Assembly: GCA_963575745.1 (NCBI GenBank)
Contig: CAUYUJ010015016.1
Location: 264,236-328,235, forward strand
Direction: 5' to 3'
Length of the DNA stretch: 64,000 bases
From: Prorocentrum cordatum
Lineage: Eukaryota; Sar; Dinophyceae; Prorocentrales; Prorocentraceae
A program made the position numbers and the translations under genes. The notes under the pieces are model-generated. The model did not search any database, had not been told where the DNA came from, and saw only the letters and a program-made list of their open reading frames with translations. Below are positions 9,505-63,026 of the stretch, piece after piece. Numbering within the stretch: the stretch's first letter is position 1; every line of letters begins with the position of its first letter.

Positions 9505-9793
9505 ATTATCAAAGCAAAACTAGACGAGATCTCAGGAAAACTAAACAGGACCTCACCAAAACTAAACGAGGCCCTAGGACAACCAGAGAGGACCCTACCA
9601 AAACTAAACGAGACCGTAGGACAACTAAACAGGACCCCAGCAAAACTAAACGAGACCCTAGGAAAATTAAACACGACCCTACGAAACCTAAACGAGACCA
9701 TAGGACAACTAAACAGGACCCTATAGCTAAACGAGGCCCCCCGGGCCCCCCCGGGGGGCGCGCCCCCCGGGCCCCCCCCCCGGGCCCTTCCCC
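9505..9793. repeat. Forward arm of the 21-bp satellite plus GC core
   Basis: A single forward arm (ACTAAACGAGACCCTAGG type) to about 9735, then a CCCCGGG-rich core to 9793. The reverse arm expected from the three complete units at 5.6-7.6 kb is missing. The sequence changes abruptly at 9794 into the left terminal inverted repeat of the next element. Confidence 0.85.
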
Positions 9794-9832
9794 CTTGAGC
9801 ATCCAATGCACCAATATATTGCAAACACCCAT
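9794..9832 (+). repeat. Left terminal inverted repeat (39 bp)
   Basis: Starts CTTGAGCATCCAATGCACC and ends GCAAACACCCAT. It matches the reverse complement of 19590-19628 at 36 of 39 positions by eye. It lies 112 bp beyond the stop codon of the TNP2-like gene. Confidence 0.8.
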
Positions 9833-9943
9833 GTATTAGGATTCTCTTAAAATCTCGTCCGTTAAGATTTTCTGTCAAAATTCGCACCGAAGAAAATCCC
9901 CTTAGATGAGGGGCGTTGCCTTCTTTGGGCTATTTTTTCATAC

Positions 9944-12372
9944 TCAGCGCAAGAGACGAACAACAAGCTGCCCCATAAACTTCGCCATGCATGCCCTTGA
10001 AAACTCAGACGTGTTCGGGGCGCCCCCTCTGCGCTTCCCAAACGCCGCAGCGGACCCTCCAAAGTCTTCACCTCGGTAGTTCCAGTGCTTGGGCGGTTGT
10101 CCTCCAGAAGAACATAATTCCAAAAATAAATGCAGTTTGGGTTTAATGCGAAATATGTTATCATGCGCCGTCGCCAAAGCAGCGAAGTGTTGAGCAAAAC
10201 GCACATAATGGTCCAGCATCGTGTCTTTCGTAAATGGGAAAGACCCTGCAAGCGCAGCGTAGCAGCGTGATAAACTCTGCATGCAAAAATACATAGAAGA
10301 CTCCACGGGGTCATTCCTGTCGCAGAACTGTTCCGCAAGTTCCATACCCCACGGTTTTAGATGCCGAACCATACCAGCGCTACATCTGAGCTTGGGATTG
10401 CTGTTTGATTTGCCTTTCACAACCCCAATGCTCAAGTGAGGAAGCCTGTTCGGCGCGCCGTTCGGAGGTTGTCTATCGTAAAACCCCTGCATCATAAGGT
10501 GCATCTCTCGCATGCGCTGCTTCTGCGCGCCGCCTGGGACTTTCCTCTCGACGACGCAATACCAGATCAGAGAGCCCATAAAATCTGCAGCTACACCTAA
10601 ATCCGCGCAGTGCAGCCAATCCAACATCAAAATTCGCACGCTGGCAAACGGAACCATCAACAAAGGGCATACTCGATGTCCAGCACCCAGGATTTTCATC
10701 AAAAGTTCTTGCCATGATCTGCGGTCCGCGCGCCAGGGCGCGCCGTGGCCGATCTCGGTAGAGACCGCGCGGGCATCGAAGACTTCGCTTTGCCATCCTC
10801 CCTCTCCTGTTCTGCCTCTGCCTCCTCCGCCTGCTCCTCGGCTTGCCCGCCCTCCTCGACGCCCCCGTCACTTGGCGCGTCGCCCTCCCCTCCTCCCCAG
10901 CGCATCGCCCCCCCCCTCGCATATGGTTTCCCGTTGCGTGCCTCGTCGTCGTCGTCGTCGTCGTCCTCCTCCTCCTCCTCCTCCTCTTTCTCCTTCTGCT
11001 CCTCCTCCTTGCCCTCCTCCCCCTCCTCCTCCGCCCCTCCCCCTCCTCCTCCTCCGTCTCCCTAATCATCTCCTCCTCCTCCTCCTCCTCCTCCTCCTCC
11101 TCCTCCCCCTCCCCCTCCTCCTCCTCCTCCTCCTCCTCCCCCTCCTCCTCCTCCTCCTCCTCCTCCTCCTATCCGTCTCGTGTCATTGATTTGCTTGTGC
11201 GCGTTGCCATCCCTTTCCTCCATTCCCCTCTCCCCCCCCCCTTGCCTCCTCCAGCTAATGGTCCGCGCTCCACCTCTCAACTCGCCCTGCTGGCCCCGCG
11301 CGCAGCGTTGATAGCCCTCCCCCGCTTCTTGGGCGATCGCCCCCTAGCGATAGGGGATGGCCTTTGCAACGCCAGTGCGGGGGGCGCACAACTTTCGCGC
11401 CAGGATCCCCCTCCTCAGGCAGCGCGGGGGGAAGGGGGGGGGGGGGCGTTGGGGCAGGGGTCGGTGGAGGCAGAACTGGGTTGGCTATGTGTTTTTCCCT
11501 GTGACCTCGGGCAGCTTGATCTTACGCTGGAAGCAGCGCTCCGCGCCCTGCCACCCTGGCAGCTTCAGCGCCTCCTTGAACATCTCCCAGTCGCCTTTGA
11601 CCTGGCAGACAACGCCACTGAGAGGGGGTCGCCCTCTCTCGCTATGCTGTTTGGCCCTCCACTTGTCGCTCTTCCCGAATGGCGATCCCTCGTGTCTGCA
11701 CGATGGCCGCGTTTTGGTTGCGAGGTGCGCGAATGACCAGCGGGCAATTTCAAACATGTCATCCAGGGTGTTTGGGGACAACTGGTTCTTCAGCAAGCAT
11801 GCGATGGGCGCGCGGAGGTTCGCGTAGCGCTCCTCTAAGCCAGGCAACAGGAGCGAAACAATTTCAGCGGTCACGCTGCGGTCCCAGTTACAAGGCACAC
11901 CGTCTTGCCAGATGCCGCATGGGACCGTGTCGGAGTCGCCGAGGGACGACGCTGCACTGTTGAAATGCTCCAGCGAAACGGGATCTAACCCAGACGCGCC
12001 AGTCAGAACATTTGCGTGGCCGAAGAACGCCAAACGATCCAAAATCTCGTGGGGCAGCATTAACTGCATTTTCCGCGGCCCCTCCACCTGCATTTTAGTG
12101 TTCCACACCCGCGCGTCGCACACGTACAAGGGTGGCCAACCGGTCTTTCTGAAAATTTGGCGAAAGAAACGTGGGGCATTGCCCGGGTATTTTTCTGATG
12201 GTACTAAACCAGTAACGCCTGTGGCACCAGAGCGGTGGACGTCGTTTGCCAATTGGGGCCCCCTGGCGCCCGACGCGATGTTGCGCGACACGAGGTCAGC
12301 GACGTTCGCCCTCAGGCGTTTGTCTGCTGGCAGCGCGCGCCTGTCATAAGGCAGCGCGCGTTTGGACAGCAT
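9944..12372 (-). CDS. TNP2-like transposase-related protein (two exons seen)
   Basis: Exon A runs from at least ATG 12372 to about 11535 and exon B from about 10795 to the stop at 9944. The roughly 740-bp intron is filled by a (CCT)n tract. Exon A carries DGVPCNWDRS and ends in VKGDWEMFKEALKLPGW plus a Cys. Exon B begins near APWRADRRSWQELLMKI and has LDWLHCADLGVAADFMG, IKPKLHLFLELC and YRGEDFGGSAAAFGKRRGG. From memory, this order (GDW, LP-Cys, DWLH.xDxGVxADFLG, RMKPK.H, YRDEDFGG) defines a family repeated many times in dinoflagellate genomes. The Asp-rich DWLH motif resembles the catalytic region of TNP2 transposases of CACTA elements. Residues and splice sites were not verified against an alignment. 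The frame is open upstream to 12777 but that part is (GA)n/(GACA)n, so the N-terminus is unresolved. It sits next to the left TIR and is the best candidate transposase of the element. Confidence 0.7.
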
Positions 12373-12579
12373 GCTGCGGCGACCTCTCTCGAGCCAGAAG
12401 CTACGGGCGTCCCTTGAGCCAAAAGCTACGGACGTATCTTGCGCACTGGCGCGCCCTACAACGGGGCCACCCCTGCAGGAGAGGGGCGACGAGAAGATGC
12501 GAAGGCCCCCCTCGAGAAGGGGTCGCGCTGGATACCGGGCGGGGCGGCGAAAGGGGGGTGGAACAGCAGAGGGAGAAAA

Positions 12580-12585
12580 GGAGAG

Positions 12586-12629
<44 letters not shown>

Positions 12630-12669
12630 AGAACAGACGAACGCGAGTGAGAGCGAGAAGCAACGAACG

Positions 12670-12705
<36 letters not shown>

Positions 12706-12765
12706 GGAAACAGACAGACAGACAGACAGAGATAGGCTGAGACAGACAGGGGCAGACAGACAGAG
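12580..12765. repeat. (GA)n and (GACA)n microsatellites
   Basis: GAGAGA from about 12588 to 12630, then GACAGACA from about 12668 to 12732, both imperfect. They lie at the 5' side of the TNP2-like gene. Confidence 0.9.
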
Positions 12766-12898
12766 AGCCCCTATCAAGGTTTGCGCGCATTTTTTCTTGT
12801 TGGAGCGTCGCCTTGCGCCTCCATCTCTAGCGCCTGCGCGCCGAGGGGATGATGTGGATGTAACTCAGAGAGCTACGAATATGATATGGAAACGCCAC

Positions 12899-14097
12899 TC
12901 ACTCCACGTAGCGCGAGAACCTCCTGGCCGCCAGTTTGATGCCGTCCAGGTGGTGCTCTGCGGTGGACTTCATGGCTGCGAGATCCTTGTTCAGATTGGC
13001 ATAATCCTCTTTCTTCTCGTTCGTCTCGTGAGTGATTCCCGTCTTCTCGATCAGGAGCTCCACCGCCTCCTCGTGATCAGTCGCGCTCTTGAGGGTCTTG
13101 TCAGCCTCCTTTGCCCAGGTGTCATATTGGCCTTTGTCACTGTCCTTGGCAGTCTTGGCGTGATTGTGGAGCTTCGCGCGGAGCGTCTTCAGCTTCTTCA
13201 TCTCAGCCTGGTACTTCGACAGGGTAGACCTATGCGCAAGAAGAGGGAGGGGGGGAGCGTTTGTGAGGGGAGTGAGCAGGAAGACGAGGGAGAGGAGAAA
13301 TTGCTGAGGCGACGGCGTGATCGAATCCTTGTTCGCCTGGATGTTCGGCCACAGCGGGTTCTCCAGCTTCACTGGGTTCGCGCTCGCACTGCTGCTGCCA
13401 CTGCGCAGCTCCCCCATCCTGCCTGCTGCCCATTCCAGCGCTTTTGCCGACTTGACGTCGCCCTCGCCCGTAAACTTTTCTTGTCAGACGTCTCCAAGCT
13501 GTCCTCAGACATCTGTGGGAAAATGAAATAGAACTCGTGCCACAATATGCGGTCCTTCTTGTCGTACTTCACTGGGAACGCCTCCTTCGTATTGTACGTC
13601 TGTGAACTATCCTCCCACCACTCCTGGACGAACTCGAGAGCCAGCTTATGATCCTTAAAATCTGACAATTAAAGGTTCGGTTCTTTCAAAGCTTGCGGAA
13701 CTGTGACGTACCCCTTCTTGGCCCATTCCTTATGCTTTTCTGCATTTTCGCATTCTTCGTGAAACGTACGCACCCAGTCCGAGTTCTTGCTCTTATCCTT
13801 CTGGAAGCTCTCCAAGAATATCTTGCGCTCTGAAGGGCTCTTGCAACTCGACCAGACTGCCTGCGCTTCCGCTGCCTTCTTCTGCAAATCTGCATCAGTG
13901 CCAGAGGAATTGTGCTTGAGCCAGTTGCGCGTCTTTGTGGCCTCCTTCGGGTCGACCGCCTCCCCCTTAGAAGCCTTGCATCTCTCAGGGGCGGGGCCAG
14001 AGTCGTCGCCTTTCTTCGCCCCGCACACCATCGACGAACATAGAATCATCATCGGCGCGGCGTACGCGAAGCAAGAAACCGCGGCGGGAGGAGGCAT
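12899..14097 (-). CDS. Lys/Glu-rich dinoflagellate-family protein, broken frame
   Basis: Three minus-strand blocks read as one protein. Block 1 (about 14097-13672) contains KTRNWLKHNSSGTDADL and SDWVRTFHEECENAEKH and ends at a TAA (13671-13669). The same frame continues immediately with LSDFKDHKLALEFVQEWWED and LWHEFYFIFPQ. Near 13490 a one-base shift at AAGAAAAG restores EKFTGEGDVKSAKALEWAAG and LENPLWPNIQ. A short intron (about 13231-13325, acceptor CATAG) precedes STLSKYQAEMKKLKTLRAK, and the protein ends RRFSRYVE at 12899. I recall similar WV-rich, Lys-rich proteins as repeated, function-unknown families in dinoflagellates. The TAA may be a spliced intron end, true decay or error. It lies between the coiled-coil and TNP2-like genes on the same strand, consistent with one element. 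Confidence 0.6.
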
Positions 14098-14099
14098 TC

Positions 14100-14860
14100 T
14101 GTCGAACCGTACAAGGATCAGACACTCGCAAATGCAAAGATGACAATCAGCGCGCCGAAAACAAGCGGACCTTGAGCCGAAAAGCACTTACGGGATGCAT
14201 GCCCCCCCCTCCCCCCGTTGGCCCTACCTGCCTCCTTCCTCGTCGGTCCTTCCTTGCCGTAGTGTCCTGATCTACAGAAATCCGCCATGCTCATCCTGCC
14301 CCCCAGAAAGCCCCTACAGTAGGGACATGAACCAAGAGGACAATGATATCTAGGCTAGATACCCCGATCAAGGGGTGATCGCGGACTGCGAGCGAATGGT
14401 AAACATTTGCACTACCGCTATTAAGCTGATCAGAGTGTAGGGTCAGAAGCCCCGTGGTCAAACCACCAGTCTTTGTTCGGAAGTGTTGGTTTCATCAGGC
14501 AACGCAAAGTGAGCCAATCTGCCGCTAGAAAGCGGACAATCTCTTTTCTGAAATTCTTTTAATAGAATGTGGGTTTTGCTTGATACTTCCTTCAATTCTA
14601 TTAAATAGAATTTCTATTTAATAGAATCGGGTGTGTCTTCTGTGGCCCAGCTGAGCGGGCTTCCAGTCGCAGCCAGCGTGCAGCGACTGTCGTAGATATG
14701 GATGTGAAACCCACCGCGGGTCTCAGGCCTCCTTCGCGCCGCACACGAGGAAGTCGCCCTCTGGGAGGGGGGATGGGGGGGGGGCGCGCAAGTGTAATGT
14801 GTGGGAGGGAGACAGATCCACTACAGAAGTGGTGACGGCTCTCAAGGAAAAGCATCGCGG
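14100..14860. other. Spacer without gene; TTCTATTAAATAGAA palindromes
   Basis: No coding signal. It contains A+T palindromes ATTCTTTTAATAGAAT (14553-14568), AATTCTATTAAATAGAATT (14594-14612) and TTCTATTTAATAGAA (14612-14626), plus two CCCC..GGGG hairpins at 14311 and 14362. Confidence 0.6.
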
Positions 14861-14862
14861 TC

Positions 14863-15828
14863 CTAGTTCCCCTTGCGGCCGCCCTTCTTGCCGTCCTTCT
14901 TGCCCCCGCCCTTCTTCGCCTGGGCGTCCTCGTCTTTCCTCCGCTTCTCCTCCTCGTCTTTCTTCCGCTGGTCCTCCTCGCGTTTCTTCCGTTCCTCCTC
15001 CGCCTTCCGATCGGAATCCTCTTTCTGCTTCCTCTCGGCTTCTGCCCTCGCGTCGTCCTCTTCCTTCTTCTTCCTCTCTTCCGCTGCTGTGCGGGCCTGC
15101 TCTGATTGCGCCGGTCTCCGCTCCTCTGCAGCCTTCCTGTCGTTCTCCTCTGTCTGCCGCCTTTCTGCGTCAGCCCTCTCCGCCGTCGCCACCTCCAGCG
15201 GACTCGCAGTGCCTGCGCAACTGCCCCCGCCTCCCCCGCGCCTGGCGTCAGCTCTCTTTTTCATGCGTTCTCGCTCGCGGCGCCTGTCCTCTTCCTGCTT
15301 GCGTTTCCGACTTTCTTCGGTTGCGCTCCTGCATTCCTCCTCTTACAGCCTCATCGCCGCAGCTTCCTCTTCTTCCTGTTGCCTCTGTTTTTCAAGCTCC
15401 TCCGCCTCTTTTCGCTCCTGCTCGATTCGTTGGAAAGCTTCGGCTGCTCTGCTAGCGACACTCACCTCTGCTTGCTCCAAGACGCGCAGGACTTGCCTCG
15501 TCATCTCTGCTCTCCTCTTCCTCTCGTCGGCCTTCGCTTGAATCTCCCTTTCTTCCGCCTGCCTGGCTGCTTCCTTCCTCTCTTCCTCTTGTCGCCGAAG
15601 AGCTGCTTCCTCGCGTCGTCGGGCTGCTTCCTCGTCCCTCCGCGCCTGCTCCTGCAGAGCCCCCCTTTCCATCTCCTCGCGTGAAGCCGTTCTCTCGCGC
15701 CTCCCCCTCCTCTGCCTCTTCAGGGTTGCGCGCCCTCTCTTGTTGAGATCCTCCGTCTCAGCGCCGCTAGTGTCGTCTGCGTCCGCCTCTGGGCTGAGCG
15801 GGGCCCCCTCGCAGGTCTCGGTCTGCAT
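14863..15828 (-). CDS. Charged coiled-coil protein with one in-frame TAA
   Basis: Starts at ATG 15828 (MQTETCEGAPLSPEADADD), although the frame is open further upstream as a Gly/Ala/Glu repeat. The body is almost entirely Glu/Arg/Lys/Gln heptad-like sequence (EEAARRREEAALRRQEEE, RKKREEDQRKKDEEEKRRK), predicting a long alpha-helical coiled coil of roughly 280 residues, and ends in a Lys/Gly tail KKDGKKGGRKGN. A TAA at 15345-15343 interrupts the frame, but the same frame continues as coiled coil to 14863. CTGTAAGAG at that point could instead be a GT splice donor of a roughly 65-nt intron. Composition alone does not give a function. Such proteins could bind nucleic acid or assemble into particles, which is inference only. 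Confidence 0.55.
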
Positions 15829-16149
15829 TCCTGCCTCCTGCGTCGCAGGCTGCGTCGCTGGATGCGCGCCTGCAGCTCCTGCTTCCGCGCCTTCTCCTTC
15901 TGCTTCCGCGCCCCCACCTGCTCCCTCGGCCGAGCCCCGGGGATTGCGGACAATATGCCCCTAGCTGAGGGGTCGTTAATGCAAGTAGGGATGTTTGCAC
16001 CCCTAGCAAAGGGGAATCTTATCGTAGGGCTGTTTTGGCGCCCCCTAGCGCAAGGGTGCTTTATTTCCTGATCCCCATCGCGTCCTCGGTGGCGTTCACG
16101 AGAGCTTGCTCGTTCCTGCCCACCCTCTGCTGCTGCCACCTGGGAGGGG

Positions 16150-16465
16150 GAAAGGAGGGGGGCAGGGGGGGGAGACGGCGGGAGAGGAAGAGGGGGGATG
16201 GGGGGGGGGGAGGAGGACGAGGAGGAGGAGGAAGAGAAAGGAGGGGAAAGGAGGAGGGAGGAGGGAGGAGGCGGAGGAGGAGGAGAAAAGGAAACGGACG
16301 TGAAGAGGGAGAAGGGGGGAGGGGGGGAGGGAGGGAGGAGGAGGAGGAGGATGAGGAGGAGGAGGAGGAAGAGAAGGGGGAGGAGGAAGAGGAGGAGAAG
16401 GAAGGAGAGGAGGAGGAAGAGGGGAAGGAGGAGGAGGACGAGGAGGAGGAGGAGGAGGAAGAACC
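16150..16465. repeat. Imperfect (GGA)n purine tract
   Basis: GGAGGA/GAGGAAGAGG low-complexity sequence; open frames of poly-Glu, Arg or Gly are artefacts. The complementary pyrimidine tract lies in the TNP2-like intron at 10960-11170. Confidence 0.9.
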
Positions 16466-16539
16466 CTGCAAGAACAGAAACTCGGATTGAAAAGCTGCGA
16501 AAAGTTTTTCATGCCAAACTCTGGTGACAAGAAAGGTTT

Positions 16540-16805
16540 ATCATGTCAAACTTAGGTTTCCAGTGGGCGCGCAGTGTAATGGGTTCCCATGGGGGCCACC
16601 TGGCGCGCTCGGCCTCCGACTTGCGGCCGCGATAGCGGCGGCCCCCCGTGGAGATGAAGCCCCGCTCCGTCCACCAGCGAGAGGCGTGGTGCTCCTGGCA
16701 GGAACGCGACACGCACGTGAAGACCCACGTGCGCCTGCTGCACTTATTGCACAGCTGGATCTCGTCCGTGCGCAAGAACGGCCTTGTTGGAGCCCTCGTG
16801 CGCCG
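16540..16805 (-). CDS. Cys-rich exon, possible zinc-binding
   Basis: The minus strand after a possible acceptor GTAG|CGG (exon start about 16805) encodes RRTRAPTRPFLRTDEIQLC and then CNKCSRRTWVFTCVSRSC, a CxxC...CxxxxC arrangement followed by QEHHASRWWTERGF. Spacing suggests a small zinc-binding module, but I cannot match it to a named finger. The frame runs to TLRAHWKPKFDMINL near 16540. It is flanked by hairpins and by the (GGA)n tract, with no start codon and no stop linked to the other exons. Confidence 0.4.
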
Positions 16806-16889
16806 CTACTCCCTGAGATCCCTCAGCATCTCAGCCTCACCCCCCCCCCCTCCTCGTCTGACGGCGGTCACGTCGCCCTAGGGAAGGAA

Positions 16890-17058
16890 AGGGGGGGAAG
16901 ACGAACAAATCCTCTATTGAAGAGGCGCCCCGTAGCAAGGGGTCAATAAACTTGTGCATCCGACCCAGCGTCCTTCGCGCCATCGAGATGACGCTTCCGC
17001 GGAAGATCGCCCCGCTGGTCGCCGCCGCTGCCTCCCGGAGCAGATCCGCTGCCAGCGA
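16890..17058 (-). CDS. Weak exon candidate, minus strand
   Basis: One frame gives a helical, protein-like stretch beginning SLAADLLREAAAATSGAIFR and followed by SVISMARRTLGRMHKFIDP. It lies just below the poly-G run and spans the hairpin at 16928-16942, so its end is uncertain. No homology recognised. A second weak stretch, MAKSALVLAALAAWLDSQG near 17320, resembles a signal peptide but lacks support. Confidence 0.3.
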
Positions 17059-17071
17059 TCATCGCCTGAGT

Positions 17072-17073
<2 letters not shown>

Positions 17074-17110
<37 letters not shown>
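17074..17110. repeat. Poly-G run of 37
   Basis: Uninterrupted G on the plus strand. Its length is unreliable in any sequencing technology, and a gap or collapse may hide here. Confidence 0.95.
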
Positions 17111-17665
17111 CTGGCGCGCGCCCTCGCTCTTCTCTGGCTCTACCCAAGGAGTTCCTGGAGGGAGAAGGTTTCTCTTAGAAAACTTTGGTATCTGAATTCC
17201 CTGATCCCCATCTCGCCCCTGACATCCGAACCTCCTGATTTGTTCCCAAGACTCGCGGCCTCCGCCCCCTGCGAATCGAGCCACGCGGCGAGCGCCGCGA
17301 GCACAAGAGCGGATTTCGCCATTGCGCGAAGGCCTTCTCGTGAGCCTCGCGGGCTCGATCGCCTGGGGCCGCAAGCGGCTGCACTGAACATAAACAATCG
17401 AAATCTCTTGCTGCGGTTCCCCCGAATGAAGGGGCGCGCCCCCTAACAAGGGGTTCGTGACGCCCCTGGTGGAAGGGATGTGAACATTATATAAAAGCGT
17501 GAAGAGACGAGATGGCGAGCCCCTGAAAGAGGGGAAGTGCTGCGTAAGATGACGATGTGTGCTGATGATGGCGATGATGATCGCGATGATGATGATGAGG
17601 AGGATGAGGGCAATTCCATCGATCAGCTCCTCCATCAGAGCGTCCGCAGCGCCCCGCGCAGCAGC

Positions 17666-18336
17666 CTACGTCTCAGCAATCGTGCCCTCCTTGAGCTGTT
17701 CGCACACCTGCCTGCCGATGTCCAGCAGCTCCTCCTTCGACACCTTGTCCCTCGCAGCGGCGCCTCCGAACGAGCATAGCTGATTCTTCTTCCCGCGCAG
17801 CAGTTTGATCCCCACCCTGCGGTCCCTCTTGTACCAGTCAAAGTGATAATCGCGCCCGTCGACAAAAAATGAAAGAGAGCAAGACAAAGCAAAAACAAAA
17901 AAAAAAGAGGGGATACCAAAAAAAATAAAGCACGACAAATAAAATAAGAGAATAAAAAAAAACCACCCCAAAAAAGCAGGACAAAAACAAAAAGACAAAA
18001 AAAAGAAAAGACAAGAGGACCATCAAAAGAACAAAGACAAAAAGAATAAAAAAAAAAATTAGAAAAACAACACAACACAAAAAAAGAAACGAAAAAGTAT
18101 AACAAGACGCCTCCAACTGCTTCGTCGGCTAGCTCGTCCTCCGCCTCGTCGTCGCCACCGCCTCCCGCGTCCTGCTGCTCCTCCTCCTCCTCCTCCTCTT
18201 CGTCTTCCTGCCCGCCGCCTTCTTCTCCGTCCGAATCCTCGCTGGCAGCCTTCGCGCGGGCAGGGCGCTTCCTGGGAGGTCCCTTCATCGCTGCAGCAGG
18301 GCGCTTCCTGGCTGCTTTTATACACTTTTTCTTCAT
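17666..18336 (-). CDS. Basic/acidic protein overlapping the upstream gene by ATGA
   Basis: The ATG at 18336-18334 shares three bases with the TGA ending the preceding gene (18335-18333). The N-terminus is basic (MKKKCIKAARKRPAAAM, a nuclear-signal-like KGPPRKRPARAK) followed by a long Asp/Glu/Gly run to about 18118. An A+T-rich intron of about 240 bp (17870-18110) then intervenes. The final block encodes VDGRDYHFDWYKRDRRVGIKL and ends KEELLDIGRQVCEQLKEGTI..ET with TAG at 17668-17666. Exact splice sites are not canonical: no AG is seen just before VDGRD. FDWYKRD echoes TWYDWNSD of the upstream gene, so the two may be related. Function unknown. Confidence 0.5.
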
Positions 18337-19353
18337 TGTTTTTTTTGGTCAGGTTTCGTCGGCGCCTCCTTCTCTTGGGCCTCCCGCTTCTTCCGCCACT
18401 CAGCATGGGCAACGAGCAAGGCGTTGGACTGGTCTGTCTCGATCTTGTCCCCACCAGGCGCGCGTGAGATCAAGAAACCCATCTCGCCTGCTGACAGCGG
18501 CATGCGCGTCTCCTGGCCCGACTCATCAGCAACGACCATGGACGGCGGGTCGGAGTTCCAGTCGTACCACGTCACCTGTGATAAAGAAGACGGATGAGTT
18601 GGACGGATAGAAGAGGATGATCTCAGCAGGAGAAATTAGCAGGCAGCAGAAAGGGATGGAGAGGAGGTGAAAAGTGACCTTCTTCGCAGAGCTAGAAGCG
18701 GCAGGTGCAGCGGAAGGGCGCGCAGGTGACTCCATCACCTCCTGGCTTGAGAAAACGACGAGCGGGCTGTGCACTTCGTCCTTCTTGGTCTTCGCCTTGG
18801 GCGGTGGAGAAATCCCATATAGCTCCTTGATCAGCTTGTGCCTTGCGTCTGCTGGACTGCGTGGTGCACTCGCGGCTGGGGCCGAGCTCTCGGCACGAGT
18901 GTCATCCGCGGAGGTGCTCTCGACGACGTCATCACTGCGTGGCGTCTCCTTCTTTTTGCCAGAAGAAGTACGACCGCACTCCAAGTTCATCGCCTGTCCG
19001 AGGGTCCTCGTGTAGTGATCCAGCTTCTCCGCGGCCACGGCGCTCCTGAACTTGTTCACTACGTAGCTGACGCACCTGCTCATCTCAGTGGCCCAGCGCT
19101 TCGCTTCCTCTGCCGTGAGGTGCGTCTTCTGCGAAACGATGGCCTTCGTGAGCGCTGTGGAGCTCAAGCGCTGCGACGCCTGGCACGCATCCAACAAGAA
19201 CGGCATGTTATCTTTGATGATCTGCTCCGTTGTGCCATTGATGTAGTTCTTCTCGATCAATGACACGCGCTGCTTCACCAAGTCAACCATGGCCTCATCG
19301 CCGAGCTGGCAAGTGCGGTAGAGGCGCGGCTTCTCCTTAGAAGCGCCCCCCAT
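18333..19353 (-). CDS. 305-residue unknown protein, one clear intron
   Basis: Exon 1 is 19353-18679, the intron 18678-18576 (103 bp) and exon 2 18575-18333. The junction is clean: ..GCGAAGAAG|GTCACT at the donor and CACAG|GTGACG at the acceptor, giving AKK-VTWYDWN in frame. The GTCAC/GTGAC similarity on both sides is of the direct-repeat type reported for dinoflagellate introns. The chosen start gives MGGASKEKPRLYRTCQLG. Sequence just upstream (TTATTATGTAG) could be an acceptor for an earlier exon. Exon 1 is helical (VDLVKQRVSLIEKNY, AEEAKRWATEMSRCVSYVV) and then Ser/Ala/Pro-rich with KAKTKKDEVHSP. I do not recognise a domain. It is the gene closest to the right TIR and therefore the 5'-most gene of the element. 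Confidence 0.65.
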
Positions 19354-19589
19354 CTCAACGCAATGCCTGCTGCCGCTCGCGTTTGAGCAAATGGCTACAT
19401 AATAAAAAGGGTAAAAGAAAAGGAAGTGCCCCTTTGAAGGGGTCGCAGGAAGCTCTTCCCCCAGCAAGGGGTGACGTCGCGCAACCATGATGGATCATGC
19501 CGAACACAACATAGGAAAGCGTACCAATATATTGGCGCCCGCCGCGAGCGAATATTTTCGAACATGGGTTCTCGCTGAGAGCAATATAT

Positions 19590-19628
19590 ATTGGTGTTTG
19601 CAATGTATTGGTGTATTGGATGCTCAAG
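19590..19628 (-). repeat. Right terminal inverted repeat (39 bp)
   Basis: Plus-strand sequence ends GTATTGGATGCTCAAG. Read on minus it begins CTTGAGCATCCAATACACC. It lies about 240 bp upstream of the ATG of the first minus-strand gene. A further ACCAATATATTGG palindrome lies just inside, near 19525. Confidence 0.8.
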
Positions 19629-20420
19629 GCCGCGGCGGCCGCGGCCGCTCGCCCGGCGGCCCCGGCGGCGTCCCCAGCGGGTTTGGCAGCGGGCTGGGGC
19701 GATTCTGGGCCGCGACGCTCCGGGCCCAGAACCCTGGCCCCGCCGCCCGCGGCGGCCGCGGCCGCCCGCCCGGCGGCCCCGGCGGCGCCCCCGAGGGACC
19801 GGGAACGGCTCGGGCGCCCCCTCGGCCTCCGCGAACCGCACCGCCCGCGGCGCGCCCGCAAGCGCGCCCAGTGCCGGCGCCGGCGAGCAGCAAGGGCCGC
19901 CGCGGGCAGGCGGCCAGGGGGCGTGACTTCGAGGGGCAGAATCCTTCCCCCCCTGGCCGCAAGCGCCCGCGGCGACAGCAGCTGATCTGCCTGGGCGCCG
20001 GTTGCCCCGCGGGCGCCGCCGCGCGCCCGCCCGCCGTTGGGTTGCCACGCCGAGTTGCCGGCAACCGCCCGCGCGGGGCCGCCTGGCCGGGCGCCGGGCG
20101 CCCCGCGGGCGCCGCCGCGCGCCCGCCCGCCGCCGGGATGCCACGCCGAGCTGCCGGCAACCGCCCGCGCGGGGCCGCCTGGCCGGGCGCCGGGCGCCCC
20201 GCGGGCGCCGCCGCGCGCCCGCCCGCCGCTGCAGGGCTGCCAGGCCGAGCTGCCGGCAACCGCCCGCGCGGGGCCGCCTGGCCGTGCGCCAGGCGCCCTG
20301 CGGGCGCCGCCGTGCGCCCGCTTACTGCGGGCCGCTTGGCGCCCCCAGCGGCGCGGCCGCGCCCGGTCCGCGGCGCCGGCGGGGCCGCCAAGCGCGCAGC
20401 GTTCGTCGCGGGCAGCGTCA
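19629..20420. repeat. Very GC-rich block with 96-99-bp tandem units
   Basis: CpG-dense sequence. Three units containing TGCCACGCCGAG / CCGGCAACCGCCCGCGCGGG repeat at about 20043, 20139 and 20238. Long open frames on all strands are composition artefacts. Confidence 0.8.
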
Positions 20421-62314: not shown

Positions 62315-63026
62315 ATCACCCGGGTGACTCCAACCTAAGACCCATGGAGGCCCAACCGGAAAGAAAAAAAAATGGGGCGCGCCGAAGAACCCAGGGGGTC
62401 CGGTTTCCGCGGAGGAAAGAAAAAAACCCTGGCGATGGGGTTCGAGCACGGGGGTTACCCCCCCCTCAAATTCCGGAAGAGGAATGAACTCCCAGCCGCG
62501 GGGGTGCCCGCGCGAGGGGCCCCACCCCCCCAAGCGCAACCAGAGGAAGAAAAGCGTGGGAGCCGAGACTGTAAGTGCAATGCAACAACACCTTAGGGAT
62601 TTGCATTAGTACGGGATTTGTATTAGTACGGGAACAACTGAATTACAGCCGGTGAGGTTTGGGTTCGGGTTCGGGCTTATATATTGGGAACCCAGTATAT
62701 TGGAAACGCAATATATTGGAAACTCAATATGTTGGAAACCCACTATATTGGAAACCCAATATATTCGAAACCCAATATTAGAAACCCGACATATTGGAAA
62801 CCCAAAATATTGGGAACCCAATATATTAGGAACCCAACGAGTTGTACGGTAGTCGGGGGGTTCAGGGGTTCCAACGGCAACGCGCGCGGGGAAGAAGGAA
62901 CAAAATCCATGCGCCGCCAGGGGTCCCGGGTTTAACGGGTCGCCGCGAAGGTTGACCCCCCGCGGAAAGAAGAAAAGAAATCCGGCCGGGGGGTTGGGGG
63001 GGTGAGGGATGAGTCACGGGGGCGAT
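62315..63026. mobile_element. Non-autonomous hAT-like element, copy 2 (8-bp TSD)
   Basis: 712 bp with the same ends and outer segments as copy 1 (left part to about 62594, right part from about 62840). Flanked by AATATGAA (62307-62314) and AATATGAG (63027-63034), an 8-bp duplication with one mismatch. The interior is an unrelated minisatellite of about 15-16 bp (ATATTGGAAACCCA type). Confidence 0.86.

Follow-up and report, generated by a model that had tools for sequence, protein, structure and literature searches.

A 64,000-nucleotide stretch of the Prorocentrum cordatum genome (assembly GCA_963575745.1, contig CAUYUJ010015016.1, positions 264,236 to 328,235), hereafter the window, raises the question of whether some 9.8 kb within it, bounded by terminal inverted repeats (TIRs) and holding a row of genes with functions unassigned, form a single mobile unit. 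We conclude, with a probability of about 0.92, that this interval is a member of a dinoflagellate family of cut-and-paste DNA transposons carrying five genes, here called A to E. The original prediction had reported inverted ends matching at 36 of 39 positions, which we find as claimed and extend to 40 of 44, and had set the limits at 9794..19628; comparison among copies moves each end one base outward. The limits and the features that bear on them are as follows.

9793..19629 (9837 bp, no strand assigned): the whole transposon, with termini CCTTGAGC...GCTCAAGG; its ends are common to 12 other two-TIR copies
9793..9836, plus strand: left TIR, at the 3' side of the genes; 40/44 to the right TIR, with 40 scored genome-wide matches
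19586..19629, minus strand: right TIR, at the 5' side of the genes
9791..9792: left 2-bp flank CC, identical to the right flank; the copy is mosaic, so this may not be its own duplication
19630..19631: right 2-bp flank CC
17866..18107, minus strand: T-rich low-complexity insert of 242 bp that interrupts gene A, without counterpart in the other 12 complete copies

Copies in the genome and joint travel of genes and ends

We searched the genome (4.13 Gb in 21,875 contigs, in which the window is C14167:264236-328235) with the left TIR and obtained 53 candidates, 40 of which gave scored matches. Of these 40, 28 pair up facing inward at distances below 30 kb, giving 14 pairs (13 spaced at 8.2-12.1 kb and one at 28.6 kb), and no same-orientation pair occurs within 30 kb among the 40 scored matches. 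When 20 stretches were examined, 12 held both TIRs and the other eight held one TIR each within the stretch. Thirteen complete copies of this focal family, counting the window copy (the others being L009-L018, L023 and L025), measure 8.2-9.8 kb at a pairwise identity of 92.5-98.2%. The flanks of focal copies, compared by eye, are mostly unlike; the exceptions are the window copy with L009 and L011, and L026 with L028.

A genome search with the gene A protein gave 7279 first-look candidates, of which 139 were scored, giving 146 rows. By our own count these rows hold 25 loci at 85-100% identity, nine rows at 60-78%, three at 47-59% and 101 at 35-39%, the remainder being second pieces of loci already counted. 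The group at about 37%, with its 101 scored rows, is an abundant family; the 7279 candidates over all families are unconfirmed. All but one of the 25 loci at 85% or more (24/25) lie within 11 kb of a listed TIR match.

Two relatives were read through whole, L033 from the 70% group and L034 from the 37% group. In L033 all five genes stand in sequence from A to E, with protein identities of 53-85%, and the gene-A end bears the focal TIR (89%). In L034 the order is A, B, D, E (31-55% identity), with a Lys/Glu-rich open reading frame (ORF) in gene C's place; no gene C match was found there at 1e-3, and gene C in this third family is assigned by place and composition only. Ten plus-strand members of the 37% group were additionally sampled, chosen by gene A alone, and the left terminus CCTTGAGACTCC... 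stands at the predicted place in all ten, with both ends present in nine at a distance of 9.31-9.37 kb. Copies chosen by their TIRs thus turn out to contain the genes, and those chosen by gene A to have the TIRs; the gene set and the TIRs travel together. Collectively, these findings bear out the proposal that the genes form one mobile unit, in TIR-bounded units of about 9.5 kb whose gene order is kept in both relatives read through. There are at least three related families, with gene A about 95%, 70% and 37% identical and the five genes in the same order.

Target sites and the mosaic copy in the window

The dinucleotides directly outside the terminus are equal in 11 of the 13 focal copies and in eight of the nine distant-family copies with both ends. 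Over the combined 22 sites a 2-bp match is found at 19, a 3-bp match at none, and 5-bp and 8-bp matches at one each; with a chance rate of 0.152 at shifted positions, 19 of 22 corresponds to P = 2.8e-13. The two focal exceptions, L011 (ag/cc) and L012 (tt/ag), lie on the same contig (C13692:226889-236636 and 289101-298664), and the left dinucleotide of L011 equals the right one of L012, which suggests that the dinucleotides were swapped by recombination between copies 62 kb apart, or by misassembly.

The original prediction had looked to empty sites for a target duplication. The duplication stands (19 of 22 sites); no true empty allele turned up, and joins within tandem repeats take its place. 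All 22 joins were scored, and five (C472, C14181, C5815, C259 and C12446) were taken as informative for their visibly periodic flanks, a choice made after seeing them. In these five, over trims of 0-6 bp, dropping one 2-bp copy restores the period of the repeat best. Among the other joins, L013 and L015 are also best at 2 bp, the rest are scattered or tied, and the L018 flank is too short. Several distant-family copies sit in tandem repeats, and at L034:9250-9325 two same-orientation copies of this family are found 76 bp apart in a GGGACCC repeat; it is possible that such repeats are a target preference of the distant family.

The window copy itself is damaged at several places: gene C has an internal stop, the gene B exon has one stop, and in gene E Arg replaces the second Cys of CxxC and RGED replaces RDED. 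The copy is also mosaic, its left end being 99-100% identical to L009, with about 1.5 kb of left flank in common at 95%, and its right end 99.4-100% identical to L011, with about 600 bp of right flank in common at 99.5%. The CC/CC flank alone is therefore weak evidence, and the family carries the case. We put at even odds that the window copy is an assembly mosaic whose CC/CC flanks agree by chance. The divided likeness to L009 and L011 and the private T-rich insert near one change of partner point that way, as does the MaSuRCA hybrid assembly from PacBio and Illumina reads described in a passage of PMC10666404, but L011 and L012 look recombined too, and true exchange or gene conversion among copies would look alike. 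The T-rich insert at 17866-18107 adjoins the point where the window copy switches nearest relative, and could be either an artefact or the scar of a repair; private low-complexity inserts also occur, at other positions, in L025 and L012.

Short motifs recur near the ends. Pieces of the palindrome CCAATATATTG are found subterminally at 9810, 19523, 19589 and 19606, and in the subterminal regions of L034 a different motif, CTATAGATCGACC, recurs likewise; both may be protein-binding repeats. A tandem array of ATATATTGGAAACCCA at 62679-62837 is similar to the inner TIR motif CAATATATTGCAAACACC.

Five genes and a predicted RAG1-like transposase

Every gene identified lies on the minus strand, in agreement with the single strand first noted; the Cys/His gene B (~16560-16868) had been missing from the original list.

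18679..19353, minus strand: gene A exon 1 (MGGASKEK...), 70% to L033 and 96% to the P. cordatum gene model P0021
18345..18575 (end approximate), minus strand: gene A exon 2 (VTWYDWNSDPPSMV...), with an intron at 18576-18678; P0021 and P0022 continue here
17666..18342, minus strand: last part of gene A (Lys/Arg-rich, acidic, then DWYKRD...), interrupted in the window copy
16560..16868 (boundaries approximate), minus strand: gene B Cys/His exon (KCSRRTWVFTCVSRSCQEHHASRWW...), with counterparts in L033 (64%) and L034 (41%) that hold the same position in the gene row
14866..15960 (open span), minus strand: gene C, coiled-coil Lys/Glu-rich protein, 60% to L033, with a positional counterpart ORF in L034
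13320..14097 (boundaries approximate), minus strand: gene D exon 1, Lys-rich protein, 61% to L033 and 45% to L034
12899..13228, minus strand: gene D exon 2, 72% to L033 and 35% to L034
11506..12372, minus strand: gene E exon 1, putative transposase (DGVPCNW, KGDW and CxxC region), with P0023, P0024, P0029, P0030 and P0032; 81% to L033 and 53% to L034
9944..10780, minus strand: gene E exon 2, putative transposase (DWLH, KPKLH and YRGEDFGG with the third acid), with 20 homologues

The gene A protein has a helical N-terminal domain, a disordered middle and a Lys/Arg-rich and acidic tail. Near 18340 the frame of gene A changes at an A run in the window copy and in L016, and L033 and P0022 stay in-frame; this could be either a mutation of the source copy or a programmed shift. 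For gene B the query was pieced together from two copies; the pattern KC...CV...CQEHHA is partly kept across the three families, and the match in L034 has one stop near its start. The join of the gene E exons is fixed because P0029, P0030 and P0032 carry both halves in a single frame. Seven other-strand open frames of at least 100 amino acids (in L016, with less than half exon overlap) were compared with L033 and none is clearly conserved, their ratios of non-synonymous to synonymous substitution (dN/dS) being 0.65-1.13.

We infer that gene E encodes a DDE transposase, with its acids in DGVPCNW, (K/R)GDW and YRDEDFGG and with CxxC following the second of them. The best structural match to the predicted fold of its homologue P0030 is RAG1/Transib, with 426 of 557 residues aligned to RAG1 and an identity of 10-14% in the RAG1-like matches; the catalytic core thus appears, in this model, to have a RAG1-like fold, with a predicted RNase-H/DDE core. 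Motifs and fold both speak for the earlier label "TNP2-like", but Pfam TNP2 (Transposase_21) is absent from the matches of nine window ORFs, of the 21-row set of gene E exon 2 homologues (A1; E up to 1) and of nine proteins including P0029-P0032 (E up to 10). RDED is present in 15 of 17 readable focal copies, with RGED in the window copy and L009. CxxC lies 20 residues after the acid in P0030, and CFQC is kept in 16 of 19 readable focal copies, with CFQR in the window copy, L015 and L026. Most of A1 has H-x3-E, and P0012, P0013, P0014 and P0018 have H-x3-H. A scan of IMG/VR with A1 gave 48 pattern matches and no confirmed one, and among viral structures there was no match at E <= 0.001. Fragments of gene E are listed in EukProt under a green alga (P0007 and P0028, Pyramimonas sp. 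AAC.1); one gene-E query is covered to 32% at 91% identity and the other to 47% at 60%, and the fragments may reflect either contamination or horizontal transfer.

All five genes show coding-type conservation between the two closest families. In protein-guided alignments of L016 with L033, dN/dS is 0.37 and 0.51 for A, 0.46 for B, 0.25 for C, 0.31 and 0.38 for D, and 0.20 and 0.19 for E. A plain DNA alignment of nine exons of the same pair gives 0.17-0.62, compared with 0.75-1.95 in same-strand wrong frames and 0.36-0.67 in the mirror frame, and in seven of the nine exons none of the other five frames is as low as the assigned one. Against L034 the values are 0.39-0.91 where computable, many synonymous sites being saturated.

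A number of observations count against a mobile five-gene unit. The L033 stretch covers only one element end, three of the 22 sites have no matching duplication, and no true empty allele, transcript or excision was observed in the one genome at hand. For two of the nine exons (A2 and A3) the other-strand mirror frame gives a slightly lower value than the assigned frame. Among the 13 focal copies dN/dS is 0.63-1.11, similar to the 0.54-1.13 of wrong frames; stops are present in two copies for A, one for B, five for C, five for D and two for E, and exon lengths are out of frame relative to L016 in seven, none, ten, eight and four copies, respectively. The modelled transposase is the homologue P0030 and not the window protein, and 12 of 17 readable focal copies have Arg in place of the DWLH His, which is nearly invariant in homologues. 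The gene A fold is poorly predicted, with a mean model confidence (pLDDT, predicted local distance difference test) of 56 overall and mostly 57-80 in the N-terminal domain. Finally, no gene reaches a Pfam curated cut-off among nine window ORFs, 21 homologues of E exon 2, nine longer proteins and eight L033/L034 frames. The third-position signal among focal copies is weak. Because dN/dS within the copies is near 1, they cannot by themselves establish the genes, and the proof comes from comparing families. Individual copies drift after insertion, the lineage being kept by selection.

The failure of A-D to reach a Pfam cut-off and their unassigned functions would also suit an arrangement in which only gene E and the ends are mobile and A-D are host genes caught once as cargo, but A-D keep their order and coding conservation between families, and we consider this reading unlikely. 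In the five-gene transposon, the gene E protein would pair and cut the ends and join them to target DNA 2 bp apart. Gene B, and perhaps D, would help to bind the ends or the subterminal CAATATATTG-type repeats, and genes A and C would be accessory proteins. A comparable role in binding ends and subterminal repeats belongs to TnpA of En/Spm.

Palindromes and affinities of the element

About 17 CCCC...GGGG hairpins had been described as confined to the inside of the element, in spacers and introns only. Their enrichment inside stands: a strict rule (CCCC, a loop of 3-9 nt with at least two A/T, GGGG) finds 13, compared with 1.4 +/- 1.3 in 200 first-order Markov sequences. "Confined" was too strong, with 14 other-loop matches in the other 54 kb. 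The tighter form CCCCT-N1-8-AGGGG occurs nine times inside (0.26 expected) and twice outside in the window. Eight of the nine are non-coding; the ninth, at 15958, falls within the edge of the gene C open span, at its very start and ahead of any evident start codon. The sites inside the window copy are the following.

9898..9913: palindrome after gene E
11341..11356: palindrome in the gene E intron
12470..12522: pair of palindromes in the D-E spacer
14362..14375: CCCC/GGGG palindrome in the C-D spacer
15958..16014: pair of palindromes in the B-C spacer, the first lying at the border of the C open span
16928..17534: four palindromes between genes A and B
19429..19471: two palindromes between the right TIR and gene A

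Counts of the tight form are nine in the window copy, 13 in L033 and 30 in L034, compared with 0.24-0.32 expected, and 51 of these 52 sites lie outside coding spans, which by our approximate, self-drawn limits make up 56-59% of the sequence. Sites 965 and 982 of L034 are non-coding only if gene A has an intron there, where the frame stays open. Palindromes stand ahead of genes A, B, C, D and E and inside the E intron; the stems are constant and the loops vary between families, and the focal palindrome is asymmetric on the gene strand (CCCCTTnGCTAGGGG-like). They would most likely be either signals in transcript processing of the gene row or sites for an element protein.

Passages of PMC10666404 describe dinoflagellate introners as intron-making elements, called non-autonomous, and P. 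cordatum introns as enriched in introners, with short inverted repeats (8-20 nt) no more than 30 bases from the intron ends. Short inverted repeats are a point of likeness, and the palindromes could on that ground be introner-type termini and not the transposon's own system. We think this improbable, a shade more so than the capture of A-D as cargo: the palindromes are mostly intergenic single short stem-loops, 30 of them in one 10-kb stretch, most of the 13 copies have them at matching positions, and the element differs from introners in carrying five genes. By far the least credible account, a segmental or tandem duplication of host genes with TIRs as passengers, can point to the flanks that the window has in common with L009 and L011 and that L026 shares with L028, to the two distant-family copies 76 bp apart in one orientation and to the many duplicated gene arrays of dinoflagellates, but the other flanks differ by eye, and it is rejected as a general cause by the 2-bp duplications that unrelated sites show right at CCTTGAG (19 of 22); duplication does hold for parts of the window copy.

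The transposon reading places the element among TIR DNA transposons (class II, subclass 1), given its TIR-bounded repeated units, fixed 2-bp duplication and predicted RNase-H/DDE core. The CMCT clade, as characterized in a part of PMC12730594, has C(2)C between the second D and the last E, H(3-4)H ahead of that E, 2-5 bp duplications and mostly CA..TG termini. The element resembles this clade in its putative transposase acids, the C(2)C arrangement, the TIRs and a 2-bp duplication within the 2-5 bp range. It differs in having CC...GG ends, in both TIR types, where most members have CA...TG (the source allows exceptions), less clearly in H-x3-E in most homologues (four have H-x3-H) as opposed to H(3-4)H, and in its four conserved accessory genes, palindromes throughout and absence of a TNP2 Pfam match. 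PlavakaA shares the 2-bp duplication, but its ends are TGT...ACA as opposed to CCTTGAG...CTCAAGG. CACTA elements carry a second protein besides the transposase, according to an excerpt of PMC4158355, and are alike in having further protein beside it; plain CACTA/EnSpm is rejected by the termini, which are not CACTA or CAC...GTG, and by 3-bp duplications at 0/22. The KDZ elements (Kyakuja, Dileera, Zisupton) are likewise eukaryotic DNA transposons, some with extra genes, and are rejected by the 8-bp duplication that a portion of PMC12730594 gives for Zisupton, compared with 1/22 here.

The likeness to RAG1, ProtoRAG (BbRAGL) and Transib lies in the predicted fold of the catalytic core. Acid spacings are 108 and 254 in RAG1, presuming its acids to be D600 and D708 and taking E962 from the titles of structure entries, compared with 101 and 256 in the gene E homologue. 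RAG1 and Transib make 5-bp duplications; here the duplication is 2 bp, with 1/22 at 5 bp. No RAG2-like partner was noticed, no search having been aimed at one. Searches of an open-licence library, which takes in neither subscription journals nor Repbase, brought up no description of such an element. A known kind of mobile element is represented here by a new lineage, notable for its unusual and conserved set of helpers. We lean towards a separate deep RAG1-fold lineage in dinoflagellates, an obligate five-gene system marked by CCTTGAG termini, duplications of 2 bp and a palindrome code of its own (CCCCT/AGGGG), present as several families in one genome.

The copies also record how mutation has run in a genome with a presumed modified thymine. 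Singleton substitutions among the 13 complete copies are A>G at 210/1595 sites, T>C at 162/1334, C>T at 83/1953 and G>A at 76/2247, the reverse of the usual C>T excess; with strands merged, T>C peaks at TpA when sites are sorted by the following base (48/285) and, among preceding bases, where G stands before the T (124/560). 5-Hydroxymethyluracil is associated with repetitive and transposable DNA in another dinoflagellate, as reported in a section of PMC11071213. Its mispairing may underlie the T>C/A>G bias, with biased gene conversion and sequencing bias as alternatives.

Dinoflagellate genomes are very large and rich in predicted proteins without assigned function, and in one species five such families are parts of one system. 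If the separate lineage is real, orphan dinoflagellate protein families would come together as a single mobile machine, and the RAG recombinase would have a multi-subunit relative outside animals. Structural modelling would place the transposase on the branch that holds RAG1, and its old, conserved accessory genes raise the question of why a RAG-fold transposase needs four helpers. The palindromes of the three families, with their differing loops, offer a handle on whether they act as DNA or as RNA.

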